Origin: Sinomonas sp. ASV486
GTDB lineage: Bacteria; Actinomycetota; Actinomycetes; Actinomycetales; Micrococcaceae
Reading direction: 5' to 3'
Length of the DNA stretch: 64,000 nt
Assembly (NCBI RefSeq): GCF_030908215.1
Contig: NZ_JAVFJK010000003.1
Coordinates: 309,883-373,882 of the forward strand
Under the pieces are notes generated by a model. That model searched no databases. It was not told where the DNA came from and worked only from the letters and a program-made list of their open reading frames with translations. Positions 26,921 to 45,206 of this stretch are shown here, piece by piece. Made by a program: the position numbers and the translations under genes. How positions within the stretch are numbered: the stretch's first letter is position 1; every line of letters starts with the position of its first letter.

Positions 26921-27059
26921 GACTGAGCGCTCCTCCACAGTGCTTTCTCACTACACCCCTTTTGGCGAACCCGAATCAGATCGAAGATGTCCCAGCGGCC
27001 TTGCGGACTTGACCCCATTGAGGGGTTTTTGAGGTTCTCCGCAAATCGTGGACGGTTGC

Positions 27060-27945: not shown

Positions 27946-28275
27946 CAGTTCGAAGCATTCCCGTTCGGATGCCTGGAGGCGAAGAAGGCCGCGGCTTTTC
28001 CCAGGAACTCGTTGTCCATCCGCAGCCTGGCGTTCTCCCGCCGCAGCCGCTCCAGCTCGGCCTTCTCGTCCACCACCGCCGCGGGTGGCCGGGTCCTGCC
28101 GCGCCCGCTCGCCCTTCACCCACCGGCCCAGCAGCGCCTCCCCGACGCCGCGCTCCCGGGCGACCTGCGCGATCGGCCGGCCCGTGTCGATCACCAGCCG
28201 CGCCGCCTCACGCCGACACTCCGGCGTGAACGACCTCGTCGACCTGCCCAGAAGAACACCTTCCCGCAGGACCAT
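27945..28275 (-). pseudogene. IS3-family transposase orfA, frameshifted
   Basis: The N-terminal helix-turn-helix (SFTPECRREAARLVIDTGRP and VARERGVGEALLGRWV) starts at the ATG at 28275. Near 28082 one extra base in a G/C-rich run shifts the frame. The leucine-zipper part VVDEKAELERLRRENARLRM then continues in the new frame to a TGA that overlaps the orfB start (TGATG). Confidence 0.78.
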
Positions 28276-28554: not shown

Positions 28555-31500
28555 TCAGAGGCTCTGGATGCGCTCCTCACGGTCCGATGTACGCCCACGC
28601 ACGGCGAGACGCTCGGCTTCGGCCTGCTGGGCCGTGTGGGCTGCGGCCTTCTGCGCCTCAGCTGCACGGGTGCGCTCGATGCGGACGACGGCGTCGCGAG
28701 GCATCAACGACCTCAGTGATTCGGCCTCAGTTCGCGCGTCTTGGGCGGCCTTTGTCCAACGCCGGATTTCGCGGCCGGGGTTGGCGCCTTCGTACCGCCC
28801 GGCTGCTCGGCGAACGTGCTCGATGCCGAATACGCGGGCCACCGCGGCCAGCCTGTCCTCCCTGAGAGATGGCGTCGGGCGGTGTGTGCCCGACGCGGCC
28901 AAGAGGCCGGCGACGTGGCCCCATTGTGCGGCCGCGCGCTCGGCGGCCTCGGCGCGGGCGCTGAGCGCGGCGATTTCGTCTCGTACCCGCTTTGCTGGGC
29001 CGCTGTCGGTGAGCCCGCGGATGGCTACCCCTGCGCGGTCGGTGGCGAAGGTGAGGCCCCGGTCGGCGCGGTCGCGTTCCATCGCGGCGGTGAACTGTTC
29101 CCGGGCATGGTCGGGGTTCTCGGCGATGACGTGCAGCCGGTTCGCCTGGCGGCCGCGGGTCATGCCGACATATACGGCCGCCGCGCTGGTCTGGTGGGTG
29201 AGCAGCGTGTGCGACGCCGTTGCGGTCGTGCCCTGGACGCCGTAGGCGGTCGCCGCATAGGCAAGGTGCGCGTACTCCGCCACGTAGTCGGCTGGGAGGT
29301 GAACGCTGGTCTCGTGCCTTCGGCCTGTGCCGGTCTCGCGCACCCACAGCGATCCGTCGGCGTCGACCTGCTGCACAGTCCAGTTCTGCCGGTTGGCGAC
29401 GCCGAGGCCGGTGTCGTTGCGTCGGGTCTGGATCAGGTCTCCGGCGCCGATGCTCAGGCCGTCGCTGCCCGTGACTGTTCGGGCGTCGTCGACGACGCCG
29501 CGTTTGATTCGGCGGGCGCGGATGCGCTCGTTGAGGGCAGTGGCTTCCTCGAGGGTCACGACGGTGATCGCGTCGCCGTCGCGGGCGGTGCCGGCGATGT
29601 GCGTCTGGGCGTCGTCCTCGCTCGCGTGGATCCGGACGAGACCGAGTACGGTGAGCTGATCGAACACCTCGCCGGGACCGCGGCCGTCGCGCATCGCGAG
29701 CGTGAGGTCGGTGTAGGCGGGATCGGTGAAGCGGTGCACGCTGGTCATCTGCCAGACGCGGCCGCGGATCTGGGCTGCCATGTCGAGCACTCCCCCGCGG
29801 CCGACTGCGGGCAGCTGCGCGCGGTCGCCGACCAGCGCGACGCTCGCTCCCGACTCCGCGGCGAGGGTAAACAGGGCGAGCGCGGTGTCCTGGTCGAGCA
29901 TCCCGGCCTCGTCGACGACGATCCGCTCGCCCCGGCCGATCCGTGCTTCGGTGGGCGGGCCGTCGTAGCTGCGTCCGGTCTCGGGGTCGATCGCCCCGCG
30001 GGCGAGGCGGGTCCAGACGCCGTCGCCGTTCCACCGCCAGCCGTGCGCGTGCACGAGGGCCGCAACCGAGTCCGCGGGCACGCCGAGTTCCTCGGCCGCG
30101 ACGCGCGCGGCCTTCCTCGTCGGGGCAACGACGCGCACCCGGCGCCCTTCGCGTTCGGAGGCGGCGATCGCGGCGGCGAGCATCGTCGTCTTCCCCGCAC
30201 CGGCGGCTCCCTCGACGACGACGAGCGGATCCGGCGACGCAACGGCCGCGGCCGCCTCGCGCTGGTCCGGATCGAGGCCATCGGCCTCGGCGAGGCCACC
30301 GAGATCGGGGCGCTCGGGCCCGGCATCTGCGACACGGGCGGTCAGGAGGTCGCGAAGCCTCGTCTGGGCCTCGATCACGCGCACGCTCGTGAGGTGCGCG
30401 ACGTGCTCCGGTGCGGGTGCGCCGGGCGGCAGGAGCGAGAAGCAGTCCTCCAACGCGAGCCGGGACGCGAGCCCGACGAACTCCCGCAGCTCCTCGCCGG
30501 TTGCGCGCACACCGTACTCGGTCACCAGGACGGTGACGTGCTCGGTGACCGTGTGCGTGGTCCACGCTGAGGCGCGGGCGGCACACCGGTCGAGGGCGCG
30601 GGATGCGATCTCCTCGATCGAGAGGTCCTCGAGCGCAACCACCGCAGGCGGTGCCGGTCGCTTCAGGGTTGCGGGGTCGTATCCGGCATGCCGGAGCCCG
30701 GCGATCCACGCGGCCTCCTCAGCGAGGCTGGTCGGCTTCTTCGCGGGCCGCTCGTACGCCCACGCCTTCGCCTGCAACCGCGCGGTGACCACCGGTCCCG
30801 GTGTCTCACCGGGGTGCACGGCCTCCCATTCGGCGCTCAGGCGGTCAAGGTTCCGCTCGACCTGGACGGCCCGCTTGCTCATCGCCGCATTGAACGGGTG
30901 CAGCTCGGCGACCTCCCCGGTGACGGGATCCAGCGTCAGCGCGTGCCGGTCGAGCACCTCGGCAAGCGCGGGATGAGCGGCGATGACGGCAGTGCCGAGC
31001 GCGCGGATTGCGCCCTGCTGGGCGAACAGTGCCGCCGTGTCGAGCGCGCGCCAGGCGCCGGCCGCACGCACGCGCGTGCCGATCTGGAGGTGGATGTGCC
31101 GATGTGGGTCCCCGGCGCGGCTCGTGCGGTGGGTGACGGCGACAGTGTGCAGTTCCTCGGCCGGCACGACCTCCTGCGCGCCGCGCGGCCCGACCCGTGT
31201 CACCGAATGCCTGGCGAGCCAGCGGCGGATCTCGGCGGCGGCATCCTGCTGTGCGGCGTCGAGCGCGGCTGACACCTCGGGATGCAGGGCCGCGGCGATG
31301 GAGAGGGACTTCGGTGCGTTGACCACCATCTCTGCGAAGCGCGGCGATCCCAGACGGCCCTCGCCCGCCCGCCGTGGGACACCCAGCTGTTCCCCGGTGA
31401 TCGGGTGCTCCCAGTCGACCCATCCGGCGTACGCGCCCGGGGCGAGGTCTCGGTTCGCAGTGGCCTCGCCGTCGCGGTCGAGCTGGACGAACTCGGCAAC

Positions 31501-31662
31501 GCTTCCGGCTCCGAGGTAGTAGTCATCGGCGCGCGAGCGATCGGATTCGACGTACCGGCGCGCGTCCGCGCCGTCCCCGCGGAACAATGTCACGCCGCCC
31601 CTCACGCCCGCCTCCCTCACCTCTGTGAGAGACAGGTGCGCAGCGCCTACCAGCGGTAGCAT
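28555..31662 (-). CDS. MobF-type conjugative relaxase-helicase (TraA/TrwC-like)
   Basis: About 1,035 residues. The N-terminal relaxase domain has the tyrosines RYVESD and ADDYYLG and the metal-binding histidine cluster GDPHRHIHLQIGTRV. The C-terminal half is a RecD-like helicase: Walker A VEGAAGAGKTTM, Walker B IVVDEAGMLD, later YGVQGTTATASHTLL and VYVGMTRGRQANRLHV. Such proteins nick oriT, attach covalently to the strand and unwind it for transfer. The open frame begins upstream at 31875, but conservation starts around MLPLVGAAHLSLTEV; the ATG at 31662 lacks a strong ribosome binding site, so the start is uncertain. No type IV secretion genes or TraB-like pump lie in the window, so the island is probably mobilisable rather than self-transmissible. 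Confidence 0.88.
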   Translation of the reverse strand: MLPLVGAAHLSLTEVREAGVRGGVTLFRGDGADARRYVESDRSRADDYYLGAGSVAEFVQLDRDGEATANRDLAPGAYAGWVDWEHPITGEQLGVPRRAGEGRLGSPRFAEMVVNAPKSLSIAAALHPEVSAALDAAQQDAAAEIRRWLARHSVTRVGPRGAQEVVPAEELHTVAVTHRTSRAGDPHRHIHLQIGTRVRAAGAWRALDTAALFAQQGAIRALGTAVIAAHPALAEVLDRHALTLDPVTGEVAELHPFNAAMSKRAVQVERNLDRLSAEWEAVHPGETPGPVVTARLQAKAWAYERPAKKPTSLAEEAAWIAGLRHAGYDPATLKRPAPPAVVALEDLSIEEIASRALDRCAARASAWTTHTVTEHVTVLVTEYGVRATGEELREFVGLASRLALEDCFSLLPPGAPAPEHVAHLTSVRVIEAQTRLRDLLTARVADAGPERPDLGGLAEADGLDPDQREAAAAVASPDPLVVVEGAAGAGKTTMLAAAIAASEREGRRVRVVAPTRKAARVAAEELGVPADSVAALVHAHGWRWNGDGVWTRLARGAIDPETGRSYDGPPTEARIGRGERIVVDEAGMLDQDTALALFTLAAESGASVALVGDRAQLPAVGRGGVLDMAAQIRGRVWQMTSVHRFTDPAYTDLTLAMRDGRGPGEVFDQLTVLGLVRIHASEDDAQTHIAGTARDGDAITVVTLEEATALNERIRARRIKRGVVDDARTVTGSDGLSIGAGDLIQTRRNDTGLGVANRQNWTVQQVDADGSLWVRETGTGRRHETSVHLPADYVAEYAHLAYAATAYGVQGTTATASHTLLTHQTSAAAVYVGMTRGRQANRLHVIAENPDHAREQFTAAMERDRADRGLTFATDRAGVAIRGLTDSGPAKRVRDEIAALSARAEAAERAAAQWGHVAGLLAASGTHRPTPSLREDRLAAVARVFGIEHVRRAAGRYEGANPGREIRRWTKAAQDARTEAESLRSLMPRDAVVRIERTRAAEAQKAAAHTAQQAEAERLAVRGRTSDREERIQSL

Positions 31663-31875
31663 GCGTCCATTCAGAAGAGCCTTGTCAGGAACGGGGAAGC
31701 CCGTTCGGCAGGCAATAGACGTCAGCACAGGGCGCTCACGACGACGTCCGTGATGATCTCTTGTGCAGATCCTGGCGCTCCGCGGGTGTTTCAGATGAAG
31801 CACGTTGCGTGCATCTTCATCGGCGCGGGTCCTACGTGCGTAGTTATCGTCAGCGATCTCAACGCACACCCTCAC

Positions 31876-32043
31876 TCAAGAGACGACTTCGATGAGTTTC
31901 ACCCCAGTTGCGAGACGTTCCGCTGCGATAGTTCCAGGAGCAGGGCTCTCCTTGGGAATGATGTATCCCTGAATCAGTCCTTGCCCGGTCTTGCTCACAT
32001 CCAGGGTTCCCCGATCGCCTGGCTTGCTCCCAAATCTCGCCAT
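31876..32043 (-). CDS. Small hypothetical protein upstream of the relaxase
   Basis: A 55-residue frame from an ATG at 32043, with a weakly placed GAGGAAG upstream. The sequence includes RGTLDVSKTGQGLIQGYIIP and looks like a small beta-rich domain. A longer frame starts at 32175. It precedes the relaxase gene on the same strand, where small accessory mobilisation proteins often occur, but it matches no family that I recognise. Confidence 0.33.
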   Translation of the reverse strand: MARFGSKPGDRGTLDVSKTGQGLIQGYIIPKESPAPGTIAAERLATGVKLIEVVS

Positions 32044-32238
32044 ATCCTGATTAGCTTCCTCGATATCGGGTGGGTCGAATTTCAGTGCAGGAGTTCGGGC
32101 AGATAAGCATGCGCATAATACTGGAGAGGCCGGTGGAGGATCCCGGAAATACGCCCAATCCGCGTACACTTCCACACGACGTATATCCGTCGAGGCCCTC
32201 CGCGCCAGAGAAATCGCTTCAGTGCGCGGGCAAGCCCA

Positions 32239-35175
32239 CTAGTAATACTCGCGGATGTAGCTCAGCGCTTTCTCGAAGACGTCGTTGTCACGAATCTTGA
32301 ACTGGACGTAGAGAGTCTTGCGGAGGGCTTGGCGGACTTCTTGGTCGCCCTGGATGGTGGCCTGCCAGCCCTCAAAACGCACCGCACGGACGACTTCGTC
32401 GATGCGGTTGACGATGTTCTCGACGATGATCGGGGTTTCCTCGGTCTTGACCGCCTGGAACAGCTCTGTGAGAGCGGCTTTCCCCTGCTCCTCACGAGGG
32501 ATTTCATTAACGGCCTTCTCGGCTACGACCGTGTCGCGCGCAAGTTCCAGCAGCTCCCGGAGGAAGTCGAGGCTCGACTGCTGGATGTCGGCGTACTTCT
32601 CGCGTAGAGCGTTGAGGCGCTGGCCGAGCTGGATGAAGACCGGGTTGTTTAGGTGCCGGGCGATGCGCGCCGTGATCTGTTTCTCGATCTCTTCCGGCGG
32701 GATGTCCGTGCGCTTGCCCAGCATAAGGTCCTCGATGGTCTGGGCATCGAGGACGATCGTCTCAGCGCCCTCCGGCAGCTCGACTTGGACGTGCTCGTTG
32801 ATCAGATCGATCGTCTTGGCGCCGAGCGCGTGCCAGACCAGGCGTCCGGTTATGTCAGAGGGACGGACGGATTCGTAGACGTCGGTCAGCCAGTGGTAAT
32901 CATCGCGATACGAGGCAAGCATCGGGTCCGGGCTGAGTGCCTCCCACAGTTGAGAGACAACGCTGTATGCTAGGCCGAACGCGTCCTTCGTCGCGTCGTC
33001 GGCAATTGCCGACTGGGCTTGGACCAGGCCCTCGTACCCGCCCACCGTCCGGTCGACGCCGGGGAAGAACGACAGAGCCACGTTGATGGCGGGCTCAAGC
33101 TCCTTCTTGAGCTCCTCGATGTTGGAGATAACTCGCTGCACGGACTTTTCGTCGAACGCCAGCGACTTCGCCACGTCGTCGAAGATTCCGAGGTAATCCA
33201 CCACCAGTCCATGCGTCTTGTTAGGTGGGTAGACCCGGTTGGTGCGAGTGATCGCCTGCAGGAGAGTGTGCTCCGTGAGCGGCTTGTCGAGGTACTGGCA
33301 GTAGAGGATCGGTGCATCGAACCCGGTGAGGAGCTTGGCGGTGACGATGATGATCTTCAGCGGATCCGCAGGGTCGTTGAACCGCGTGAGGACCTGCTCC
33401 AGATCCTCCGCGCCTGGGGTCCACTTCACCCAGTCTGGCGAGTCGCCTCTGGTCTTCGACATGACGATCGTCGAAGCCTCCGGTCCCAGATGCTTGTCGA
33501 GCTCGGCCTTGTACGCCACACATGAGGCCTTGTCGTAGGCGACGACCTGTGCCTTGAAGCCCTCGGGCTCGACCTTGGCGCGGAAGTGTTCGGCGATATC
33601 AGCGGCGATCTTCGCGATTCGCGACGGCGTCTTGATCAGGACCTCGATCGAAGCCGCCTTCCTCGAAAGCGTGATCTTGTCGGCATCGGAGAGGCCACGG
33701 TCGGCAGCAAGCTCTTCGAAGGCGGCATCGATCCCGTCCTGATCGATGTGGATCTCGGACAGGCGCGGTTCGAAATGCAGAGGGAGGGTTGCGCCGTCAC
33801 GGATCGATTCGCCGAAGGAGTACCGCGAAAGGTAGCCGCCCTCGTCCTGAGGCGACCCGAACCACATGAAGGTATTGCGGTCACGTCGGTTGATCGGTGT
33901 GCCGGTCAAGCCGAAGAGGAATGCGTTGGGCAGCGCTTCGCGCATCTTCTGCCCGTAGTCACCCTCCTGGGAGCGGTGGGCTTCGTCGACCATCACAATG
34001 ATGTTTCCACGGGCGTCCAGCACCCCTGGGGCCTCACCGAATTTGTGGATCGTTGTGATGATGATCTTCCGCGCCCCCTGGCTCAGGAGCGCCTGAAGCT
34101 GGGCTCGCGAGTCCGTCGATACCAGGCCGGGGACATCGGAGGCGTTGAAGGTGCCGGTGATCTGCGCATCGAGATCGATGCGGTCCACGACGATCAGGAT
34201 CGTCGGGTTGGTCAACTCGGCCATGGCTCGGAGCTTGAGGGCAGTGAAGACCATGAGCAGAGACTTGCCTGAGCCCTGGAAGTGCCAGATCAGGCCCTGC
34301 TTGACTTCGCCGAGCAGCACGCGCTCGACGATCAGGTTGGTCGCCTTGAACTGCTGGAACCGGGCAATGATCTTGATCTTCCGGTGCTTCTTGTCCGTTG
34401 CGTAGACCGTGAAGAACCGCAGGAAGTCCAGCACGGCGCGGGGCGTGAGGACGCCCTGGACCGCCTCCTGGACAGCGGTGAGCCCGATCTTAGCCGGCGC
34501 GTCCTCGTCGGTGGGCTCTTCGCGCCAAGGTCCCCACAGCTCGATTGGCATGCCGACCGTGCCGTACCGGAAGTCCTTGCCCTCTGTAGCGAACGAGAAC
34601 ACGTTCGGAACGAAGAACTGTGGAACGCTCTGCTCATAGTCGTCATGAATCTGCGCAGCCCCGTCGATCCACGTGTACGCCGGCCGGGTGGGCGACTTTG
34701 CCTCCCCCACAACCAGCGGGAACCCGTTGCACCATAACACCAGATCGAACCGCTTCTCGACTCGGCCCTGTCTGAACGCAACTTCCGTCGAAATCACCCA
34801 GCGGTTCGACGAATCATCATCAAGGTAGTCAAAGTCGACCAGACAGACTGTCGTGTGTTCCCCGTTCGGCCCGAACGGCATCGACTTCTGCCCGGTCAAC
34901 CAACCCATGAACTCCTCGTTGGCAACGATCGGATGCGGACTCGTGCGAGCCGCGATGACGATCGCGCGCAGGTGATGGATGACCTGTTCGGCTTTGTCCG
35001 GATCTGCTGCGATCTCCGGATTCAAACGGATCAGCGCTTCCTTGACCGGTCCTTCCATCAGCACCTCATCGAGGTGTCGCGGAAGCTTGCTGCCCGCTAC
35101 AAACGGGACGTCACGCGACGTCACCAAGTCCCGCACGAAGTCCCGCACCGCGTTAGCCTCACTAAAATTGGTCAT
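32239..35175 (-). CDS. hsdR: Type I restriction enzyme R subunit
   Basis: A 978-residue HsdR. The N-terminal nuclease motif is FDLVLWCNGFPLVVGEAKS, giving the Asp and ExK of the PD-(D/E)xK site. The helicase motor shows FQGSGKSLLMVF (Walker A), VMVDEAHRSQEGDYG (DEAH) and FLFGLTGTPINRRDRN. The C-terminal helical domain is present. It translocates DNA and cuts far from the unmethylated target in complex with HsdM and HsdS. The ATG at 35175 overlaps the hsdS stop by one base (TGATG). No lesions were seen. Confidence 0.93.
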   Translation of the reverse strand: MTNFSEANAVRDFVRDLVTSRDVPFVAGSKLPRHLDEVLMEGPVKEALIRLNPEIAADPDKAEQVIHHLRAIVIAARTSPHPIVANEEFMGWLTGQKSMPFGPNGEHTTVCLVDFDYLDDDSSNRWVISTEVAFRQGRVEKRFDLVLWCNGFPLVVGEAKSPTRPAYTWIDGAAQIHDDYEQSVPQFFVPNVFSFATEGKDFRYGTVGMPIELWGPWREEPTDEDAPAKIGLTAVQEAVQGVLTPRAVLDFLRFFTVYATDKKHRKIKIIARFQQFKATNLIVERVLLGEVKQGLIWHFQGSGKSLLMVFTALKLRAMAELTNPTILIVVDRIDLDAQITGTFNASDVPGLVSTDSRAQLQALLSQGARKIIITTIHKFGEAPGVLDARGNIIVMVDEAHRSQEGDYGQKMREALPNAFLFGLTGTPINRRDRNTFMWFGSPQDEGGYLSRYSFGESIRDGATLPLHFEPRLSEIHIDQDGIDAAFEELAADRGLSDADKITLSRKAASIEVLIKTPSRIAKIAADIAEHFRAKVEPEGFKAQVVAYDKASCVAYKAELDKHLGPEASTIVMSKTRGDSPDWVKWTPGAEDLEQVLTRFNDPADPLKIIIVTAKLLTGFDAPILYCQYLDKPLTEHTLLQAITRTNRVYPPNKTHGLVVDYLGIFDDVAKSLAFDEKSVQRVISNIEELKKELEPAINVALSFFPGVDRTVGGYEGLVQAQSAIADDATKDAFGLAYSVVSQLWEALSPDPMLASYRDDYHWLTDVYESVRPSDITGRLVWHALGAKTIDLINEHVQVELPEGAETIVLDAQTIEDLMLGKRTDIPPEEIEKQITARIARHLNNPVFIQLGQRLNALREKYADIQQSSLDFLRELLELARDTVVAEKAVNEIPREEQGKAALTELFQAVKTEETPIIVENIVNRIDEVVRAVRFEGWQATIQGDQEVRQALRKTLYVQFKIRDNDVFEKALSYIREYY

Positions 35176-36344
35176 CAATTGCCTCCGAAGATTTCGGCAA
35201 GGAGCGATGAACGCACCGATGCGAGGGCATTCATCTCTGCATCGATTGACTTCACCAGAGAATCCAGATGCTCGAGTCGAGCAAGGAGCGCACGCTGGTC
35301 GTCCAGTGAAACAGATGGGAAATCCATTCGTCCCAAAGACTTTCGATTGATCTTGACCATGCTCGTAGCGCTTCCGGCCGCGGTCCTTCGCATATGCGCT
35401 CGTCCATGCGCACTTGCAATCACTGCGACAGCAAACTTGGGCAACACATCGTCGATCAGCCACAGGCGCATCATCGTATCTGGAAACGTGACATCGGAGC
35501 GATCTTCCGTGTAGATCCCGACCCGGCCGACCGCTTCGATGGTGTTAGCTCGAGAAACAAGTAGGTCACCGGTTCGAAGGGTCGCAGTTCGTGATTGTGC
35601 TGAATCCGGGATGTTCTTCAGATTGCCGGGTCGGTATCCCTCAGGGCCGAGAGCCGCCAACGACAGGACATAACGCCCAGTATCCTCGGCGACCGGCGCC
35701 GACGACCAGCCACTCTCCGGCGATCGAGACCAGACAACGGAGAACGAGACCGTCCTATCAGCGACCATTGCCTGAATCCGATCATCCAGCCAGATGTCCC
35801 GAGCTTTCAGCGCAGCATTGCGGAGCGAGGTTTGCGCTCCAGACGCGGCTTCCACAGCCCAGACGAGGTCAGCAATGCGTTTTTGGTCGTCGAGGGGCGG
35901 CAGGTCGAACTCGAACTTAGAAAGGTCTCGCCAGTTCGTGCGAGGTGACAATGAGCCCGCAGAGGTTCCGAGAGCATGGTCGAAGAACTCGTTCGAATGT
36001 GTGAGAAGCGGCAGGAATTCGGGCAGCATCTGGGTCTTGTCTGTCTCAAAGGTGAGGATGTCGCCGGAACAGATGGCGTCGAACTCGGCATACGCCACCT
36101 TGCGCTGGTACGCTCTGCGCTTGCCGAAAAGCGTCTGGCCGGGCTTCACGCGGCGGGTGAAAGTCGTGCCCATATCGAGGGAGCCCCATCGTTGGATCTT
36201 GAGCTCCCCGGGGTCCATATGCTCCATGGCAATCACCCGGTCGATGCCCGCAGTTTCCGGGGCGCGAACGGTGAGGTTGACATTGTTGACCACGTCACCC
36301 AAAGCCACTCGTTTCCAAGTCGATTTGTCGAGGTTCAGGCTCAC
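35175..36344 (-). CDS. hsdS: Type I restriction-modification specificity subunit
   Basis: A 389-residue HsdS with two target-recognition domains. The first half ends with the conserved LPPLDDQKRIADLVW helix start; the second half has its own recognition domain ending with SVSLDDQRALLARLEHLDSL. The two domains read a bipartite DNA target. The start is GTG at 36344 overlapping the hsdM stop by four bases. It lies between hsdM and hsdR and would assemble with either of the two HsdM proteins encoded upstream, or with one of each. Confidence 0.9.
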   Translation of the reverse strand: MSLNLDKSTWKRVALGDVVNNVNLTVRAPETAGIDRVIAMEHMDPGELKIQRWGSLDMGTTFTRRVKPGQTLFGKRRAYQRKVAYAEFDAICSGDILTFETDKTQMLPEFLPLLTHSNEFFDHALGTSAGSLSPRTNWRDLSKFEFDLPPLDDQKRIADLVWAVEAASGAQTSLRNAALKARDIWLDDRIQAMVADRTVSFSVVWSRSPESGWSSAPVAEDTGRYVLSLAALGPEGYRPGNLKNIPDSAQSRTATLRTGDLLVSRANTIEAVGRVGIYTEDRSDVTFPDTMMRLWLIDDVLPKFAVAVIASAHGRAHMRRTAAGSATSMVKINRKSLGRMDFPSVSLDDQRALLARLEHLDSLVKSIDAEMNALASVRSSLLAEIFGGN

Positions 36345-37837
36345 GCTGACACCTCCGCACGAAGCAAGCTCAGAACAGCGGCAGTGGTGGCGTCTGCGGC
36401 GACGGCCGCGGCGCGCCAGTCGGCGAGAGCGTCAAGGAAATCGATCTGCTCGCTGGCGTCCGCGGCCTTGGCGCCAGCGACATAGAGCGGGATAGCCAGG
36501 CTGTATCCCTTCTGGGCGATCTGGTCGAGGGTCGCGACGGCCGCGAACTGGTGAGCGTCTGCGAATCCCCGGTAGGCGTTGAGGATCTTCATCTGGTGGT
36601 TCTCACGCAGGAACGATTGGGCCTGTTCGCGGGCAACGTCGTTGATGGCGTTGATGAAGAGCACCTTGCCTTTGTGTTCGGCGGGCTTGCTGGTGCGGAG
36701 GGTGATGACGACGGCCTCCATGGGCGAGTTGTAGAAGAGTCCCGCGCCTAGGCCGAGGACGCACTCGATCAGGTCCGACTTCACGAGGGCCTCGCGCAAT
36801 TCGGCTTCCTCGCGCCGGAAGAGGATGCCGTGGGGAAAGAGGACCGCGGCTCGGCCAGTCTTGGGATCGAGGCTCTTGGCGATGTGCTGGAAGAAGGCGT
36901 AGTCCGCCCGGCCCTGTGGTGGGACGCCCCATGTGTTCCGGCCATAGGGGTCTTTGGCAAATGCGGCGCGGTTCCACGACCTGATGGAGTAGGGCGGGTT
37001 CGCGAGTACGACGTCGAAGGTCTGCAGATGCCCGTCCGTATCATGGAAGGCTGGCTGGGCGAGGGTGTCACCATGGGCAATGTGTCCGTCAGTGACGCCG
37101 TGGAGGAAGAGGTTCATCCGTGCGATGGCGGAGGTCCCGTAGTTGAGTTCTTGGCCATAGAGGCGCAAGTTCCGCCACTCCTTGCCCTGCCGTTTGACCT
37201 CGGCGGCGGTGGAGATGAGCATGCCGCCGGTCCCGCAGGTCGGGTCGTACACGGACTCGCCGGGTTGCGGCTGCAGCATGAGGGTCATCAGGTGTACAAG
37301 CGTGCGGTTCGTATAGAACTCCTGTGCTGTGTGACCGGAATCGTCGGCGAACTTCTTGATGAGGTACTCGTAGCCGTTGCCGAGCTCGTCCTCGGGCAGG
37401 TTTGCGATCGACAGCGTTTCGGTCGAGAAGTGCTCGATCAATTCGGACAGTGTGGAGTCAGGGAGCAGGTTCTTGTTCCCCCAGTCGCCTTCCCCGAATA
37501 CGCCCGGAAGGGTGTCGGGATTCGCCTTCTCGATGGCTCGCATGGCTTTGAGGATCGTGGCGCCGATGTCCTTGGTGACGGCTCGGATGTCATCCCAGCT
37601 GGCGCCGTCCGGTATGGCGAACCTGTGGTTCTCAGGCAGGTCGGCCAGCGCCTCGTCGCCGTAGATCGCCATGGCAGCGGAGTGTTCTTCCTCGTAGACG
37701 TCGGAGATCCGCTTCAGGAAGACGAGCGGAAAGATGTACTGCTTGTAGTCTCCAGCATCGATGAGACCGCGCAGGACAACAGCAGCGCCCCATAAGTAGG
37801 ACTCCAGCTCACGCTGGGTAATTCGGGTCGAGTTCAT
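36341..37837 (-). CDS. hsdM: Type I N6-adenine methyltransferase subunit, copy 1
   Basis: A 498-residue HsdM. The N-terminal helical domain contains YIFPLVFLKRISDVYEEE, and the SAM-binding motif is YDPTCGTGGML. The catalytic motif NPPYSIRSWN and the downstream region RADYAFFQHI are intact. It methylates adenine in the HsdS target for self-protection. The gene overlaps the upstream hsdM copy by four bases and hsdS by four bases. It is clearly diverged from that copy rather than a recent duplicate. Confidence 0.92.
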   Translation of the reverse strand: MNSTRITQRELESYLWGAAVVLRGLIDAGDYKQYIFPLVFLKRISDVYEEEHSAAMAIYGDEALADLPENHRFAIPDGASWDDIRAVTKDIGATILKAMRAIEKANPDTLPGVFGEGDWGNKNLLPDSTLSELIEHFSTETLSIANLPEDELGNGYEYLIKKFADDSGHTAQEFYTNRTLVHLMTLMLQPQPGESVYDPTCGTGGMLISTAAEVKRQGKEWRNLRLYGQELNYGTSAIARMNLFLHGVTDGHIAHGDTLAQPAFHDTDGHLQTFDVVLANPPYSIRSWNRAAFAKDPYGRNTWGVPPQGRADYAFFQHIAKSLDPKTGRAAVLFPHGILFRREEAELREALVKSDLIECVLGLGAGLFYNSPMEAVVITLRTSKPAEHKGKVLFINAINDVAREQAQSFLRENHQMKILNAYRGFADAHQFAAVATLDQIAQKGYSLAIPLYVAGAKAADASEQIDFLDALADWRAAAVAADATTAAVLSLLRAEVSA

Positions 37838-39402
37838 GCCGACACCCCTTCAAGTGAAAAAGAATCCAGTCCCCACTTGCCCAACTCGACCTCCAAGGCA
37901 GAGCGCGTCTTCGCAGCTTCGATGTGAGAGCTTTCGAGGTTCGCCAAGGCGCTGGCCAGAGTGACCTTCTCGCCCGTATCGGCGGGTGCGACGTAGAGCG
38001 GGATGTTGAGGTTGTAGTCGTTGCCTGCAATCTCGTTCAGATCGACGACTCGGGCAAGCCCGTCGATATCTTTGAACAGCTCGTACGCGTCGAGGATCGC
38101 TTCGGCATGCTCCGGCTCGAGGGTGTTCTGGTTGCGGCCACGCTTGCACAAGTGCTCGCCGTTGATGAAGAGCACTTTGCCTTTTTCGTTGGGCTGCTTC
38201 TGCAGACGAAGGATCAGGACACATGCTGCCAGGCCTGTGCCGTAGAACAGGTTGGGCGCCAGTCCGATCACAGCATCGACGACGTCGGATTTGAGGATGT
38301 GGGTCCGGATCCTCGCCTCCGCACCTTGCCGGAACAGGGCGCCCTGCGGCATGACTACAGCTACCCGGCCGGTCGTGGGTTGGGCTGAGGTGAGCATGTG
38401 CTGCACCCATGCCCAATCGGCATACCCCTTCGGCGGCACACCGCCGAGTGCGCTGCGGCCCCACTTATCGGTGGCCCAACCGGACTCGCCCCAGTTCTTC
38501 AGGGAGAACGGCGGATTTGCGACGACGCAGTCGAATTGGGCCAGCCGGTTGCCGGTGTAGAAAGCCGGGCTGCGCAGGGTGTCCTCGCGGATGATCTTGA
38601 AGTCCTCCACGCCATGCAGCAGCAGGTTCATCCGAGCGATCGCCGAGGTGGCCAGGACCTTCTCCTGCCCGTACAGCTTGCCCCATAGAGTCTTTGGGCT
38701 GCCTCCGTCGGCCTTTACGTGCTCAATGACTTCGATCAGCATCCCGCCCGTTCCACAGGCGGGGTCGTACACGCTCTCGCCTTCGACCGGGTTGAGGATG
38801 TTGATGAGCAGACGGACCACCGAGCGGGGTGTGTAGTATTCACCGGCCTTCTTGTTCGACTGGTCGGCGAACCGTTTGATCAGGTACTCGTAGGCGTTGC
38901 CGAAGACATCGGGGGCGACCGCCGCGTTCGAGAGCGTCTTCGTCGAGAAGTGCTCTATCAGGTTTGCGAGCTTGCGGTCGGGCAGCTTGTCCTTGTTGGT
39001 CCAACTCGCGTTGCCGAAGATCCCGTACAGGGTTTCGGGGTTCGCCTTCTCGATCTCTCGGAACGCGGTCTGCAAGGCCGTACCGATGTTCTCAGCCCGG
39101 TTGCGGATGTTCTCCCAGAGGTGGCCTTCGGGGATCGTGAAGCGATGGTTCTCGGCGAACGATGCGTACTCGTGGTCGCCGCCGGACTCCTCCAGGGCCT
39201 GGGCGAACTCTTCCATGTACACGTCGCTGATCCGCTTGAAGAAAATCAACGGGAAGATGTACGCCTTGAAGTCGGCCTGGTCGATGCTGCCGCGCAGCAG
39301 GTCAGCCGCCTTGGCCAGATAGTTCTCCAGCTCCGACAGCGACAGCGGCTGGACCCCCAACAGGAAGCTGCCGGCGTACGCCCGCGCCTCGTCCTCAGTC
39401 AT
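37834..39402 (-). CDS. hsdM: Type I N6-adenine methyltransferase subunit, copy 2
   Basis: A 522-residue HsdM with YIFPLIFFKRISDVYMEE, SAM motif YDPACGTGGMLIEV, and catalytic NPPFSLKNWGESGW. All methyltransferase motifs are intact. The ATG at 39402 follows a GGGGGAAAG purine run. It shares its architecture with the next gene but many positions differ, including NPPF versus NPPY. Two complete, translationally coupled hsdM genes with a single hsdS and hsdR are unusual; one option is an M1-M2-S complex instead of the standard M2-S. Confidence 0.92.
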   Translation of the reverse strand: MTEDEARAYAGSFLLGVQPLSLSELENYLAKAADLLRGSIDQADFKAYIFPLIFFKRISDVYMEEFAQALEESGGDHEYASFAENHRFTIPEGHLWENIRNRAENIGTALQTAFREIEKANPETLYGIFGNASWTNKDKLPDRKLANLIEHFSTKTLSNAAVAPDVFGNAYEYLIKRFADQSNKKAGEYYTPRSVVRLLINILNPVEGESVYDPACGTGGMLIEVIEHVKADGGSPKTLWGKLYGQEKVLATSAIARMNLLLHGVEDFKIIREDTLRSPAFYTGNRLAQFDCVVANPPFSLKNWGESGWATDKWGRSALGGVPPKGYADWAWVQHMLTSAQPTTGRVAVVMPQGALFRQGAEARIRTHILKSDVVDAVIGLAPNLFYGTGLAACVLILRLQKQPNEKGKVLFINGEHLCKRGRNQNTLEPEHAEAILDAYELFKDIDGLARVVDLNEIAGNDYNLNIPLYVAPADTGEKVTLASALANLESSHIEAAKTRSALEVELGKWGLDSFSLEGVSA

Positions 39403-39513
39403 CTTTCCCCCTGCCTTAGGCGCCTCTCCGTCGTGCCGAGAGCACGTCGAGGTAAACACAACATAGATTCACACCGATTCTTCCAGTTCTGCCTTCCAAG
39501 TGGGCGCAACCCC

Positions 39514-41634
39514 TCAAGCAAGGGTGATCGTGCCCGCTGCAATGGCTTCCACGAGCGCATCACGTGTTTCGGCTGCAGCTCTTAGGACCGCGCCGGCTGC
39601 GGCCTGGAGGCGACGGACTTCGGCGATACTCTCCAGCACCCTGTCCTGTTCCGCGAGAGGCAGAAGTGGGATCTTCAGGTCTTGAAGCCGGACACGCTGG
39701 ATGGCGGCGCCGACTGCCTGCGATTTATTGGCGGCGGTCATGATGAATTCGGCTAGGTATTCCGGTCGGACGACTTCGCCCGTGACGCGCAGCAGTTGAT
39801 AGCTGGGGCTCAGCAGGACGCGGCCGCCTTCGCTGTCCACCCTCGCTGCGAGGCCACCAGTGTTCTGGACAAGGACGTCCCCCGGCTGCGTCATGACTGG
39901 CGTGTGTTCAAGGAGGCCGAGGTTGATGCGGCGGGATTCCATCTCGTTCCGACAGATCCACGCCCCAGTAACTACGGGAGCGCCCTCTACGCCATAGTCA
40001 CTCTCCCGGACACGATCAGTGGTCTTGAGCACGGTGACGCTGGCGGCCTTGACGAGGTCGGCGATACCGACCAGTCGGTGTTCCTGGCCTCCCTTTATCA
40101 GGGAATCAGGGCGCAGCTTCTGAGGAGGCTTGATCTCCTTCGTAGTGCGTAGCAGCGCCTCGACGTGTGTGCGTACTTCGTCGATATCGGACGCTCCGTG
40201 GGATGAGGAGACCCAGCGCTTCGGGGTGAGGTTCGCCCCTTCTCCGATGAGCTCTGAAAGGCTGACTGCTCCGGACGGTAGACTCGAAGGCACCTTGCGA
40301 TGGTCGCGCCAGCCCTGCAGGGCCCCAGCGACGATGTCCACATCGATGTCTTTAATCTGGCTGTGGTCGATCAGCAGCACGCTCTCCGGATCGCTGGTTT
40401 CCCCCGGCCGGGCCAGCACCCATAGGTTCAGCGAGATCTGCGTATGGGAGGCCAGGCCACCGGGAAGGGCAACTATGGCTTCGACGGTGCGGTTCTGCAG
40501 CAACGCGGCACGGATCTTGCCGGCGCTTCCAGCTTCGAAGGCGCTGCCCGCGGGCTGAATGACAATGGCGCGTCCACCTTCGCCGAGATACCACAGGGCG
40601 ATCTGAAGCCAAGCGGTGTCGATGCGCGACTTTGGGGGGGAACCATATGGCAGGCGAGGATTGAGGTAGAGGCGCTCGGGCTGGTGATAGGAGAGCCCAT
40701 AAGGAGGGTCCATAACGACCACTTGCGCCAAGCCACGCTCGAAATAGTCCGTCTCGAAGACATCGCCCACGCGCATTGTGACGTTATCGCGGCCTATTAC
40801 CAAAGCCCGTTGGTTGGCTTGGACACAGGCGGCTAAGTTGACGTCCTGTCCGGTCAGGGCCGTTCGCTCCTCACCCTGGGCGCCAACGGCCAGTAACATT
40901 CGCCCTGAGCCTGCCACAGGGTCATGAACGGGACCAGGAATGCTCCTGGCGACGGCCGCCACAAGATCCACCAGGACTGCACTGGTGGCGAATTCGTCGT
41001 AGCCCCGTAGCGATGAGTTGGTAAGGCGATCGCGGAAGGCAACGAAGATCGTACCGATACTGGCTGCATCGAAGCTGCTGAGGGCCGCCATGACCCGGTG
41101 CAGGAGTTCCGGCCGCCGCGCCGCCTCAATGAGGAGTCTGCGCGCTAGTTGACTGCCGGCGAAGGTCTCGAAGAGCGGGAGCCGTTCCGGATGCGAGTCC
41201 TCGTAGGCCTGCATGCCATGCTCAATCCTGGGAAAGAGGTCATGAGCTACTGAGGCGTCGCGAAGGTACGGCCACCAGGTCTCGGACGGCAGAGTGTTGT
41301 CGAAGCCTGCGGAATCGGGATCGGACACATACCGCCAGACCAGGAGCGCACTGACCAGCTCTCCGCTTTCCTCTGGGCCGCCGAGTCCGCGCAGGCTGTC
41401 CATCGCGTTCCACAGTGTCCGATCGGCTGACAGGTCTCCGACCTCCTTGCCATTGGCCTTGAGCCAGGCGCGGACCGCGGCAGTGTCAAAGCGGGGGCTG
41501 GAAGGACTGCCGCCCGCCGGCTTGGGGAAGTCAGTATGGCGCTGGCGCCAGTTGCTGACGGTGGAACGTCCGACACCAGCCAGCACGGCGATGTCGCTGG
41601 CCGAGATCGTGGGCTTGCTTGCCGGCGTGCTCAT
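39514..41634 (-). CDS. HTH, N6-adenine methylase and TRD fusion protein
   Basis: A 706-residue fusion. Residues about 10-60 form a helix-turn-helix (SASDIAVLAGVGRSTVSNWR). The middle is an HsdM-like methylase with SAM motif HDPVAGSGRMLLAVG and catalytic MDPPYGLSYHQPER. The C-terminal third is HsdS-like: EHRLVGIADLVKAASVTV, GDVLVQNTGGLAARVD and a coiled region after IPLLPLAEQDRVLESIAEV. It thus carries recognition and methylation in one chain, like a type IIG/type I hybrid without the nuclease. It overlaps the upstream NYN gene by four bases, and hsdM follows 111 bases downstream on the same strand. Confidence 0.85.
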   Translation of the reverse strand: MSTPASKPTISASDIAVLAGVGRSTVSNWRQRHTDFPKPAGGSPSSPRFDTAAVRAWLKANGKEVGDLSADRTLWNAMDSLRGLGGPEESGELVSALLVWRYVSDPDSAGFDNTLPSETWWPYLRDASVAHDLFPRIEHGMQAYEDSHPERLPLFETFAGSQLARRLLIEAARRPELLHRVMAALSSFDAASIGTIFVAFRDRLTNSSLRGYDEFATSAVLVDLVAAVARSIPGPVHDPVAGSGRMLLAVGAQGEERTALTGQDVNLAACVQANQRALVIGRDNVTMRVGDVFETDYFERGLAQVVVMDPPYGLSYHQPERLYLNPRLPYGSPPKSRIDTAWLQIALWYLGEGGRAIVIQPAGSAFEAGSAGKIRAALLQNRTVEAIVALPGGLASHTQISLNLWVLARPGETSDPESVLLIDHSQIKDIDVDIVAGALQGWRDHRKVPSSLPSGAVSLSELIGEGANLTPKRWVSSSHGASDIDEVRTHVEALLRTTKEIKPPQKLRPDSLIKGGQEHRLVGIADLVKAASVTVLKTTDRVRESDYGVEGAPVVTGAWICRNEMESRRINLGLLEHTPVMTQPGDVLVQNTGGLAARVDSEGGRVLLSPSYQLLRVTGEVVRPEYLAEFIMTAANKSQAVGAAIQRVRLQDLKIPLLPLAEQDRVLESIAEVRRLQAAAGAVLRAAAETRDALVEAIAAGTITLA

Positions 41635-42164
41635 ACTGCGTCCTTTGTCTCTGTGAACAGGGCGATGACGTTGGAGGGGATGGAGGGTCCGAGTCGGACG
41701 AGGTCGCGTCCTGCGGCCAGCCTCATTTGCTCAGAGAATCCCCTGTCCGGCGATATCACAACGACGCGAATCCCTGCGGCCTTCAAAGCCGCAACGGCGT
41801 AGGCGAAAGCATGATCTCCGGAGGCCAACACCACCTGGTCGTAGTGGGCGGCGACCCACAGGATGTCCTCGATGACCTCGAGCAGTGCAGTGTCAGCCCC
41901 GTCCTTCCCGCTGCGGGCAAGACGCTGGGCGGAACCTGTCCAGCCGAAGTAGGCGGCTGGCGCGTTGTGGTGGCTGACGGCGATTACAGTGTGGTCGCCG
42001 TGCCCGGGCTCCACGGCCGCATGGATTCGAGTTCGGATCCTGGCTACATCTCCGGCACTTGGCTCGCAGGTGCAGGCCATGTTCTCGAGGTCGACCACAT
42101 ACAGGGTCCGACCGCGCAGCCCGCGGACCTTGGTAGCCCTCGACGGGCTGTACTGCCGATCCAT
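41631..42164 (-). CDS. NYN/PIN-like nuclease domain protein
   Basis: About 177 residues. The acidic residues of the NYN fold are visible: Asp25 and Asn28 in LYVVDLENM, Asp88 and Asp91 in SGKDGADTALLEV, and the SGD motif at 115-117 in VVLASGDHAFAYAV. NYN/PIN domains are metal-dependent RNases or, less often, DNases. The ATG at 42164 is chosen for its position just before the domain; a longer frame starts at 42233 and no clear ribosome binding site decides. It is first in the restriction block and coupled to the methylase fusion, so it is probably the effector or regulator of that pair. Confidence 0.75.
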   Translation of the reverse strand: MDRQYSPSRATKVRGLRGRTLYVVDLENMACTCEPSAGDVARIRTRIHAAVEPGHGDHTVIAVSHHNAPAAYFGWTGSAQRLARSGKDGADTALLEVIEDILWVAAHYDQVVLASGDHAFAYAVAALKAAGIRVVVISPDRGFSEQMRLAAGRDLVRLGPSIPSNVIALFTETKDAV

Positions 42165-42718
42165 AAGGATTGTCCGATCCGTGAAGGAGCCCCTACAAGG
42201 AAAGACAATACACATCGATCCACGTGATGTCAAAGCGGGAAGTCAGTTCACAACTGTAGAGGTTGTTCCGATCGGTTTGCACACATCGAATTTGCTGCGG
42301 ACGGATGGTAGTTCTGGGAGCCTCAGCATCGACCAGGTCGAATCATGTAGCCCCCCCCCGCCAAGAGTGCGATGTCCAGGCAGTCGAGGACCCCCGGCGA
42401 AAACACCCGTCGGCACCGGTCTCGACGCCCCGAAGCCCAAGGGAGCGCCCGGTCGTGACGGCTCGGGAGGTCTCGGCAATTAGCCGGCGAGCCGAGGCGT
42501 CACGCGCCAAGGGGCGGGCATGTCGGCGGCAGTGCACCAAGCTGGGAGGTGACTCACCAATGAGGACAACGAGCTGCAAACGGAAGCACCGATATGGGTT
42601 CAGCCTGCCGGGACAGCCGGCCAGCCACAGCACGTACATACGTCGCGTGCATCTGCACCAGACCTCGTCGTGCGGAGGCCTCACGGATCATCGGCCCAGC
42701 GGATAACCCCCAGGTCAC

Positions 42719-43530: not shown

Positions 43531-44712
43531 TCACGCGTCCCTCGCGAACGCACGCTCGAGCATCTCGGCGGTGGCCGGGTTCACCATCTCGTTGCGGCGG
43601 ATGTAGTGCGCGATGGTGATCTTCGGGTCCGTGTGGCCGAGCAGCTCGGCGGCGAGGTCGACCCCGGCCGCGGCGCTGATCGCGGTCGCGACGGTCCGGC
43701 GGAACATGTGCGGGGTGACCCCGGTGATCCCGGCGAGGTCCATCACATGGCGGAGCTGGCGCCGGACGTTGTTTGTCGTCAGCGGCGTTCCCTCCCGGCT
43801 TGAGAACAGCAGGGCATCCAGGGACGGGTCCTTCACCTGCACCAGCCGGCGCCGCACGGCCTCGGCGGTGAACGACGGGATCGCCACGGTGCGGCGCGAC
43901 TTCGCCGTCTTGGGGTGGTCCTGCCGCACGGTCGGCTCGCCACGGTGGCTGACGATCGTGCCGGCGATCCGGATCGAGGGCGGGGCCGCGGTGATGTCGA
44001 CGTCCCGGCGCCGGATGGCCAGGACCTCCCCGATGCGGGCGGACGTGCCGAGCATGACCTCCACGATCGCGCCCAGCTGGCCGTCCGGCCTGGGCCCGGA
44101 GGGGGATCTGCCGGCCTCCCAGTAGGCGATCGCGGCGCGGATCGCGTTGACCTCCGCCGGGGTGAGCGCGTCCGGGGTCCTGACGGGGCGGTGCAGGCGG
44201 GCGACGTGGTCGACGGGGTTCCGCGGCAGGACCTCGTGCCGCACGGCCAGGGCGAGGGCGAGCCGCAGTACGACGCGGGCGTGCTTGGCCTTGGCGTAGG
44301 ACTGCTTGGCGAGCTGCTTGAGGAACTGGTCGCATCGGGCGACGCCGATCTCCCGGAGCGTGAGCCCTGCGAAGGCGGGGAGCACGAGGGTGCGCATGTC
44401 GCGCTCGTAGAGCTGCCGGGTCGCGGTCGCGAGCCGCCCCTCGAGGTCGATGTCCTCGAGCCAGTACTCGACCAGGTCGGGGAACGGGCTGTCCGGCGCG
44501 AGTGTCCCGGTCGTCGGGGCGAGCAGGTTGCGTTCGGCGCATTTGGCCTTCAGCGCGCGGGTCGCGGCCGCGGCGCTGGCGGCGCTGGCCTGCACGAGCC
44601 GCGCGACGCCGTCCCAGTCCCGGTAGCGGGTGCGGGCCTCGACCAGGCCGCTCGGGCGGCGGCGGGTGGTGATCTCGCCGTAGGTGCCGATCGTCACGCG
44701 GGGGCGGCTCAC
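43531..44712 (-). CDS. int: Tyrosine recombinase / phage-type integrase
   Basis: A 393-residue integrase. The N-terminal arm-binding region is followed by a core-binding domain (LVEYWLEDIDLEGRLATATR) and the catalytic domain: Arg in GTSARIGEVLAIRR, Lys in HPKTAKSRRTV, HxxR in TPHMFRRTVATAI, His in LLGHTDPKIT and Tyr in IAHYIRR. All catalytic residues are present. The start is GTG at 44712, five bases past the excisionase stop. It would integrate and, with the excisionase, excise the island next to tRNA-Pro. Confidence 0.93.
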   Translation of the reverse strand: MSRPRVTIGTYGEITTRRRPSGLVEARTRYRDWDGVARLVQASAASAAAATRALKAKCAERNLLAPTTGTLAPDSPFPDLVEYWLEDIDLEGRLATATRQLYERDMRTLVLPAFAGLTLREIGVARCDQFLKQLAKQSYAKAKHARVVLRLALALAVRHEVLPRNPVDHVARLHRPVRTPDALTPAEVNAIRAAIAYWEAGRSPSGPRPDGQLGAIVEVMLGTSARIGEVLAIRRRDVDITAAPPSIRIAGTIVSHRGEPTVRQDHPKTAKSRRTVAIPSFTAEAVRRRLVQVKDPSLDALLFSSREGTPLTTNNVRRQLRHVMDLAGITGVTPHMFRRTVATAISAAAGVDLAAELLGHTDPKITIAHYIRRNEMVNPATAEMLERAFARDA

Positions 44713-44716
44713 CGGG

Positions 44717-44950
44717 TCACCGCCGATCCGGCTGCGGCGCTGGGTCGCGCTGCGCCTCGATCCAGGCGGTCACGTCGTCCACGGCGAACTTGAGGTGCTT
44801 GCCGAACCGGTACGCGCGCGGCCCGAGGCCGCGGGCGCGCCAGTCGTAGACCGTGGAGACCGGGACGCCGAGGTAGGCCGAGAGCTCGCGGATATCGAGC
44901 AGTGCCGGCAGGCCGGTCTGGGGCGTCGGGAGGGGTGCTGGAGTGCTCAT
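44717..44950 (-). CDS. xis: Excisionase-like HTH protein
   Basis: A 77-residue MerR-like helix-turn-helix (HTH_17/excisionase type): LLDIRELSAYLGVPVSTVYD and RAYRFGKHLKFAVDDVTAWI. The start at 44950 is preferred over longer frames because the domain begins soon after. It sits directly upstream of int, the usual arrangement, and bends DNA at the attachment site to favour excision. Confidence 0.82.
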   Translation of the reverse strand: MSTPAPLPTPQTGLPALLDIRELSAYLGVPVSTVYDWRARGLGPRAYRFGKHLKFAVDDVTAWIEAQRDPAPQPDRR

Positions 44951-45088: not shown

Positions 45089-45097
45089 TACGCAGAA

Positions 45098-45125: not shown

Positions 45126-45132
45126 CTCGTGG

Positions 45133-45206
<74 letters not shown>

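Follow-up and report, generated by a model that had tools for sequence, protein, structure and literature searches.

What does a type I restriction-modification (RM) operon do with two different methylase genes? We addressed this question at a locus of Sinomonas sp. ASV486, in a 64,000-nucleotide stretch of contig NZ_JAVFJK010000003.1 (the window; coordinates below are window positions). The original prediction for this DNA described hsdM, hsdM, hsdS, and hsdR genes joined by overlaps of 1 to 4 bases, and the open reading frames (ORFs) bear this out, running on the minus strand from 39402 to 32239 with overlaps of 4 bases (hsdM1/hsdM2), 4 bases (hsdM2/hsdS), and 1 base (hsdS/hsdR). The two hsdM genes are, as claimed, intact and diverged (50% identical over 471 positions), and both products keep the S-adenosylmethionine and catalytic motifs (motif I, DPACGTGGM and DPTCGTGGM; motif IV, NPPF and NPPY). 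The content, order, and overlaps of the predicted four-gene operon thus stood, but the operon appears to have six genes, two of which were overlooked: it starts ~2.8 kb farther upstream than hsdM1, with a gene for an NYN-domain protein (NYN) and then one for a methylase-like fusion protein (HTHM) ahead of hsdM1. The NYN and HTHM ORFs overlap by 4 bases, and 111 bases separate HTHM from hsdM1. The two hsdM genes most likely encode a two-chemistry enzyme, forming N6-methyladenine (m6A) and N4-methylcytosine (m4C), which answers the puzzle of the second hsdM. We are confident that the NYN-HTHM pair belongs to the operon, and we consider the m6A/m4C core and the six-gene operon, taken together and leaving aside any guard role for the pair, a likely description of the locus.

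The two HsdM proteins as probable subunits of an m6A/m4C enzyme

The structural report on the PacII enzyme (7vru/7vs4; PMC9613975) describes M1M2S as a crystallized heterotrimer in which target recognition domain (TRD) 1 pairs with M2 and TRD2 with M1. According to the same report, M1 subunits (NPPF) form m6A and M2 subunits (NPPY) form m4C, TRD1 binds CCC on behalf of M2, TRD2 binds GCAAT on behalf of M1, and S is bound first by M1, with M2 joining afterwards; the discovery of two-M m6A/m4C type I enzymes is credited there to an earlier study (reference 12 of PMC9613975). In a PDB sequence search, HsdM1 of the window matched 7vru_A at 512 bits and 7vru_B at 467 bits, HsdM2 matched 7vru_B at 562 bits and 7vru_A at 398 bits, and the nearest PDB sequence to HsdS was 7vru_C. 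Both HsdM proteins scored under the cutoff of the NCBIfam hsdM equivalog (234.6 and 178.4 bits versus 242.75), while HsdR scored above that of its own model, and the Pfam Methylase_S match to HsdS spans residues 9 to 165 only, while the PADLOC type I S model spans residues 7 to 388.

An alignment with PacII and sampled relatives separated the two methylases by motif IV, with NPPF in 7/7 M1 rows and NPPY in 8/8 M2 rows. In a 20-row tree, the eight M2 rows, which come from actinobacteria, Exiguobacterium, and PacII, were split from all other rows by a branch with 100/100 support. A recent redundant duplication within an ordinary m6A type I system would also leave two HsdM proteins with the same domains and the 50% identity seen here. 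However, the sampled M2 rows, including those of PacII and Exiguobacterium, cluster together and away from the M1 rows, and the NPPF/NPPY split held in every sampled pair, so that we regard such a duplication as extremely unlikely.

TRD1 of the window HsdS is 75 to 81% identical to that of L082, L096, L097, and L083 and 38 to 42% identical to that of L040, L102, and PacII, while TRD2 identity is 15 to 25% in all seven relatives (for PacII, over 62 positions only). The stretch KRRAYQRK, which spans the PacII TRD1 contacts R75, R76, Y78, Q79, and K81, occurs intact in the window, L082, L096, L097, L083, and PacII, is nearly kept in L102 (KRRSYQKK), and is lost in L040. Because TRD1 is conserved and PacII-like and TRD2 is variable, we predict a C-rich TRD1 half-site that receives m4C from M2, together with a freely exchanged m6A half-site.

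Several observations weigh against an m6A/m4C core of the PacII kind. The M1 rows did not form one clade in the best 20-row tree, although an M1 clade was not rejected (p-AU of 0.162), and a 25-row tree, which also held the rows L075_M, L037_M, L099_M, L105_Ma, and L105_Mb dropped from the 20-row tree, was poorly resolved and left the M2 rows without a resolved group. The pocket motifs stated for the group are AGEF in M1 and AAEF in M2 (PMC9613975), but the window has AGEY and AQEF, which the sampled actinobacterial rows share; in Exiguobacterium the motifs are AGEF and AQEF. In TRD1, H94 of PacII is replaced by D in the window. An arginine matching R29 of PacII M2 is present in 8/8 M2 rows but also in 6/7 M1 rows, though not in PacII M1. 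Since 6/7 M1 rows carry it too, this arginine does not mark M2 here, and we rejected R29 as an M2 marker for these proteins.

On balance, we hold it almost certain that the core uses m6A/m4C type I chemistry. The suggestion in the original prediction of a mixed M1-M2-S methylase, with each M serving one recognition domain, gains support from the pairing of M1 and M2 with the corresponding PacII chains and from the TRD1-M2 and TRD2-M1 contacts of the PacII heterotrimer, and it is the best reading of these sequences, although the prediction left the likely chemistry, m6A plus m4C, unnamed. The two-hsdM arrangement is explained by an enzyme kind already in print and is not new in kind. HsdM1 would act on adenine in the TRD2 half-site and HsdM2 on N4 of cytosine in the TRD1 half-site, predicted to be CCC-like. 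HsdR would cut unmodified DNA, and M1M2S would give protection through asymmetric m6A/m4C. The actinobacterial lineage, with its shifted pocket motifs and conserved TRD1, should help to trace how the acceptance of cytosine by M2 arose. A different arrangement of two methylases occurs on a Halorientalis plasmid (L105), where an archaeal type I locus has the order M-S-M-R and NFPF and NFPY replace NPPF and NPPY.

NYN-HTHM recurs at the head of type I operons

We sampled genomes by their NYN matches, which gave 20 of 394 genomes for the class (E ≤ 1e-5), 5 of 397 for the order of genome G624 (E ≤ 1e-10), and 20 of 396 for the window's own order (E ≤ 1e-10). These samples overlap, and the neighbor counts leave out the weak NYN matches G412, G452, and G465 and the plasmid rows H56 and H58. 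In the fetched neighborhoods, HTHM adjoins NYN in 15 loci, the window included, and a complete type I operon lies directly downstream in the same order in 6 of these 15 pairs (the window, L082 of G661, G624, L128, L129, and L145). At L088, the pair is followed by M-S only. There was no HTHM neighbor at the NYN loci L085, L087, L089, L090, L095, L100, L101, L131 to L144, L147, L148, L150, and L151 (L133 and L144 are cut by a contig end) or beside the second NYN match of G624 (L083), and the annotations show none at the plasmid loci L042 to L044. In the phylum sample, L099 carries an additional half-S gene that separates HTHM from hsdM, and the plasmids L037 (Dietzia) and L039 (Mycolicibacterium alvei) carry NYN-HTHM-M-S-R.

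A phylum search with a single HTHM returned mostly other methylases, and a genome scan with the window HTHM as the lone query confirmed 0 of 41 pattern matches. With an alignment of relatives as the query, a scan of named genomes gave 511 confirmed candidates, of which we took the best 80. NYN was present in 9 of these best 80 of 511 loci, six of which have the order NYN-HTHM-M1-M2-S-R: Nocardioides marmorisolisilvae, Microbacterium lacus, the metagenome-assembled genome SZAS-7, Microbacterium sp. BWSM_13, Curtobacterium sp. 9128, and Cellulomonas massiliensis. In SZAS-7 (L155) the hsdR match is split over two ORFs, and in BWSM_13 (L158) a contig end cuts hsdR. Mycobacterium sp. E1747 has NYN-HTHM-M-S-R, Microtetraspora (L172) has HTHM-M-S-R with a divergent NYN gene, and L154 ends with its contig. 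In all, NYN-HTHM heads type I operons in at least 17 loci (6 + 3 + 8), nine of them M1M2 operons and some of them cut, interrupted, or variant. The HTHM-driven sample is biased, since the query was an alignment of RM-linked copies, and 6 of 15 is the fairer figure.

A search driven by M2 found 10 of 394 genomes at E ≤ 1e-100, five of them with a whole or near-whole M1M2SR locus. NYN-HTHM lies upstream in three of these five (the window, G661, and G624) and not in G307 or G325; the G325 contig has only 728 bases before hsdM1, and G298 holds only a piece of such a locus. The M1-M2-S-R order is found also in G661, G307, G325, a Streptomyces hirsutus plasmid, an Exiguobacterium plasmid, and six named-genome contigs, a recurrence that chance does not explain.

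We then classed 101 HTHM copies, which include the best 80 of 511, by distance rules. NYN, M, and R accompany HTHM in 15 of the 101 (six with one M and nine with two, hsdM1 being interrupted in one), NYN and M without R in one (L088), and NYN without a called RM system in 12, where L099 is placed through its half-S gene and L154 through its contig end. L172 forms a class of one. HTHM has M only in three copies, neither partner in 60, and M-S-R with no NYN found in nine (L159, L169, L175, L183, L195, L197, L202, L205, and L207). Since HTHM stands directly before M-S-R without NYN in these nine loci, it may work with RM on its own.

If defense genes simply cluster on islands, NYN-HTHM and RM could be neighbors for that reason only, and the pairs found without RM, like the mobile look of the locus, would fit. 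Yet order, strand, and position are alike in the 15 loci with NYN, M, and R (with the one interrupted hsdM1), a likeness counted for NYN-HTHM only. Furthermore, HTHM overlaps hsdM1 by 4 bases in five M1M2 operons (L152, L153, L155, L158, and L160) and hsdM likewise in L128. We consider mere clustering very unlikely. What does count against a strict association is that the M1M2SR loci L040, L096, L097, and L102 lack the pair and that 11 of the 29 NYN-adjacent HTHM copies, including L154 at its contig end, have no RM. With these pairs and the nine HTHM-RM loci without NYN, neither the link between NYN-HTHM and RM nor that between NYN and HTHM is obligatory.

Other layouts were also seen. In L091 to L094 and L149, all of one family (f94) with large genomes, NYN and an HTHM with NPPF and an intact motif I are divergent and lack RM. 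On a Rhodococcus plasmid, NYN-HTHM is followed not by RM but by a 692-amino-acid protein (L038:10261-12339) with a P-loop-like match (AAA_22, 3.5e-4, under the cutoff).

NYN-HTHM and the type I genes evolve as separate modules

Over 16 compared loci, pairwise identities of NYN tracked those of HTHM (matrix correlation, r = 0.92), and those of M1 tracked those of R (0.99). Across the two modules the correlations were weak (HTHM-M1, 0.37; NYN-M1, 0.31; HTHM-R, 0.38). They were not nil, which tells somewhat against full independence: only 4, 7, and 2 of 2,000 shuffles, respectively, reached these values. Among nine M1M2SR operons, median identity was 82% (M1) and 83% (R), as against 38% for both HTHM and NYN. 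The converse holds for G624, which has an M1M2SR operon, and the single-M Dietzia plasmid: their NYN proteins are 88% and their HTHM proteins 82% identical, while M is 39% identical (compared with a piece of M1) and R 30%. Because these two share the module and not the RM system, and because the cross-module correlations are weak, the pair has joined differing type I systems more than once, in the same position. Judged by these comparisons, NYN-HTHM is a separately evolving front module of such operons. In 12 of the 16 loci, the NYN and HTHM ORFs share 1 or 4 bases; in the other four, the overlap as called is longer, with the first start codon taken.

The interrupted hsdM1 belongs to G624. On its contig C22 (L084:10039-11673 to L083:12975), hsdM1 is broken into two parts separated by ~18.7 kb, and a serine recombinase gene (Pfam Resolvase, 4.1e-17) adjoins one break. 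From this layout, we read an element as integrated into a type I methylase gene.

Features of the NYN and HTHM proteins

The AlphaFold model of NYN has a mean predicted local distance difference test (pLDDT) score of 75.4, and its best PDB matches are 2qip and the MARF1 NYN domain (TM-scores of ~0.44 to 0.66). Residues D48, E50, N51, D114, and D140 are invariant in 13/13 aligned sequences. Model confidence is low over residues 1 to 38, so translation probably begins at an internal codon.

HTHM matches Pfam N6_Mtase at 1.9e-29, and its model (mean pLDDT of 74.7) matches 7eew and type I M chains (3lkd and 7vru). Its S-like C-terminal part matches PADLOC type I S models at 1.4e-7, with no Pfam match. 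The N terminus has invariant columns in 8/8 RM-linked copies; profile matches to a helix-turn-helix (HTH) there are weak in the window copy (HTH_23, 0.036; PADLOC mad1, 2.5e-4) and stronger in the relative L152 (HTH_23, 3.9e-5), and together with the model they suggest an HTH-like domain.

Motif IV of HTHM reads EPPF, EPPY, or EPPL in 13 of the 15 loci with NYN, M, and R and DPPY or DPPF in the two others (the window and Cellulomonas massiliensis); with L099 (DPPY), L172, and L088 (NPPF) added, EPP[FLY] is found in 13 of 18 HTHM proteins. The nine copies with M-S-R but no NYN have NPPF or NPPY (five), EPPF or EPPT (three), or HLPF (one). In METTL14, as the cited account has it, EPPL replaces the DPPW of METTL3, and the site is degenerate and judged inactive (PMC5023411). 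Given this precedent and the prevalence of EPP[FLY], most HTHM proteins tied to both NYN and RM are probably, by analogy, readers rather than writers.

The window copy is less easily placed among the readers. With DPPY and an intact-looking motif I (DPVAGSG), it may be a working methylase rather than a silent reader. In the HTHM tree, which has several long branches, its neighbors are L038, L099, and the NPPF group (99/98), and most EPP copies lie elsewhere. Both HTHM lineages seem, from that position, to have met M1M2SR. One could go further and take the window HTHM for a third methylase, an M fused to half an S that acts as a homodimer on a symmetric site and adds a second specificity, with NYN loosely linked. 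The intact motifs and the structural matches to type I M chains and to 7eew fit this proposal, whereas the EPP[FLY] motif of 13 of the 15 RM-linked relatives with NYN, for which METTL14 offers an inactive precedent, speaks against it, and we find it distinctly unlikely.

A possible guard role for NYN-HTHM

We tentatively propose that NYN-HTHM is an RM guard or addiction module. Three points favor such a role: the divergence of an RNase-like gene tracks that of an HsdM/HsdS-like protein, the pair can occur without RM, and it has come to head type I operons more than once. HTHM, as an HsdM-like protein fused to half an HsdS, would bind DNA or the enzyme and keep the NYN RNase silent; failure of restriction or modification, for example, upon attack by a phage with an anti-restriction protein, would release the RNase and growth would stop, as proposed for PrrC and EcoprrI. 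In its most specific form, which is possible but somewhat doubtful, this would be an undescribed type I guard in which a usually dead M-S mimic (EPP[FLY], METTL14-like) uses its TRD to watch the enzyme or its methylated sites and frees the NYN RNase upon subversion of modification or restriction, the module being swapped between ordinary and m6A/m4C systems.

Two other roles must be weighed against a guard. HTHM could be a transcriptional control protein only, with its HTH on the promoter and its TRD reading the operator, and NYN could trim the operon mRNA or be a passenger. The HTH-like N terminus with its invariant columns would suit a regulator (the Pfam HTH matches being weak), as would the nine loci with HTHM directly before M-S-R and no NYN, and in E. 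coli a type I locus is described as having its own repressor, RptR (PMC12255303). A pure RM regulator would, however, leave unexplained both the co-divergence of NYN with HTHM and the pairs without RM, and we think this role unlikely. Alternatively, NYN-HTHM could act as toxin and antitoxin, rendering the RM operon or its mobile element addictive while sensing no phage. This fits the short overlaps of the two ORFs, the two plasmids that carry the pair without RM, and the integrase and relaxase of the probable mobile element. To our knowledge, however, it would be unusual for an antitoxin to have 650 to 720 amino acids and to include methylase and TRD domains, and simple addiction does not predict repeated joining to RM, so that we rate this reading as unlikely too. 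A guard role remains our preferred, if tentative, proposal.

We found no description of NYN-HTHM with type I restriction in open-licence papers on the NYN domain and restriction-modification or phage defense, and the main text of PMC8547433 contains no NYN. Within the open-licence literature searched, the six-gene arrangement is new as a variant.

The operon as probable cargo of a mobile element

An integrase gene and a small HTH_17 gene lie beside tRNA-Pro (43531 to 45206), and a whole-genome search found a perfect 37-bp copy of the tRNA-Pro 3′ end on the same contig (C13:305138-305174), 49.9 kb away and 4.7 kb to the left of the window. There was no attachment (att) repeat of 14 or more exact bases inside the window. 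Given these genes beside tRNA-Pro, the TrwC relaxase, and the 37-bp repeat, the operon is probably the cargo of an integrated mobile element. The G+C fraction is 0.56 to 0.65 over 31800 to 42600 and mostly higher outside, yet it is also 0.64 to 0.65 at 18 to 22 kb of the window. Two transposase ORFs lie near the operon, one IS481-like (23094 to 24134) and one IS3-like (26902 to 28275). Table 1 lists the features of the operon and of the probable carrier.

Table 1. Genes of the six-gene operon and features of its probable carrier element (window positions)
Feature	Coordinates	Strand	Description
NYN	41631-42233	minus	200 aa; NYN-domain (LabA-like) predicted ribonuclease; Pfam NYN 1.2e-7
HTHM	39514-41634	minus	706 aa; HTH-like N terminus, type I M-like methylase domain (DPPY, DPVAGSG), one S-like TRD, long C-terminal helix
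hsdM1	37834-39402	minus	522 aa; Pfam HsdM_N and N6_Mtase; AGEY, NPPF; nearest PDB chain 7vru_A (PacII M1); predicted m6A subunit
hsdM2	36341-37837	minus	498 aa; Pfam HsdM_N and N6_Mtase; AQEF, NPPY, R23 = PacII R29; nearest PDB chain 7vru_B (PacII M2); predicted m4C subunit
hsdS	35175-36344	minus	389 aa; GTG start; TRD1 PacII-like (KRRAYQRK kept), TRD2 variable
hsdR	32239-35175	minus	978 aa; Pfam HSDR_N and SWI2_SNF2; TIGR00348 473 bits (cutoff 284.55); translocase/endonuclease
MobF (TrwC) relaxase-helicase	28555-31875	minus	Pfam TrwC 2.3e-38
Tyrosine integrase	43531-44712	minus	Pfam Phage_integrase 7.4e-19; near tRNA-Pro
3′ end of tRNA-Pro, probable att site	45130-45166		37-bp perfect copy elsewhere on contig

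Significance and comparison with known systems

The accessory pair matters more than the core. A nuclease paired with an HsdM/HsdS mimic and set more than once before type I operons suggests protection against anti-restriction, or RM control, in actinobacteria.

The core resembles PacII in having two different M subunits (NPPF and NPPY) and one S subunit with a similar TRD1. It differs from PacII in its pocket motifs, in the replacement of H94, and in TRD2, which is 23% identical over the 62 PacII positions; NYN-HTHM lies upstream in the window, and the comparison with PacII covers its proteins. The plasmids of Streptomyces hirsutus (NZ_CP109265; M2, 81% identical) and Exiguobacterium (NZ_CP101463; M2, 58.6% identical) have the same M1-M2-S-R order as the window but, unlike it, no NYN-HTHM upstream. 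On the S. hirsutus plasmid, a 183-amino-acid ORF on the opposite strand ~2 kb upstream gave a weak HTHM profile match (42 bits). The whole six-gene order is present in Cellulomonas massiliensis (L161, NZ_HE978588), the closest of the 16 loci in HTHM (45%) and NYN (50%), with DPPF and not EPPF in HTHM. Even there, these two proteins are far more diverged than M1 (80%), M2 (83%), and R (84%).

MADS systems offer a partial likeness, in that HTHM matches PADLOC mad2 (8.3e-18) and mad1, and M1 and M2 match mad2. We rejected the MADS label: the NCBIfam MAD2 equivalog gave 86.5 bits for M1 and 56.4 bits for M2 against a cutoff of 720, MAD5 gave 27.2 bits on HsdS against 400, and HTHM had no NCBIfam MAD2 match at E ≤ 0.001.

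In one account (PMC12707154), PrrC and PARIS serve as guardians by sensing the inhibition of RM. The NYN protein showed no homology to PrrC; Pfam at E ≤ 0.001 gave NYN only, and the fold search placed NYN domains among the top matches. The window differs from PrrC/EcoprrI in having an NYN nuclease whose partner is an HsdM/HsdS-like fusion and whose guard role is putative. In both, however, an RNase gene lies within a type I hsd locus, and in both it is proposed to act when RM fails, as the available accounts describe for PrrC (PMC12707154; PMC2610378).

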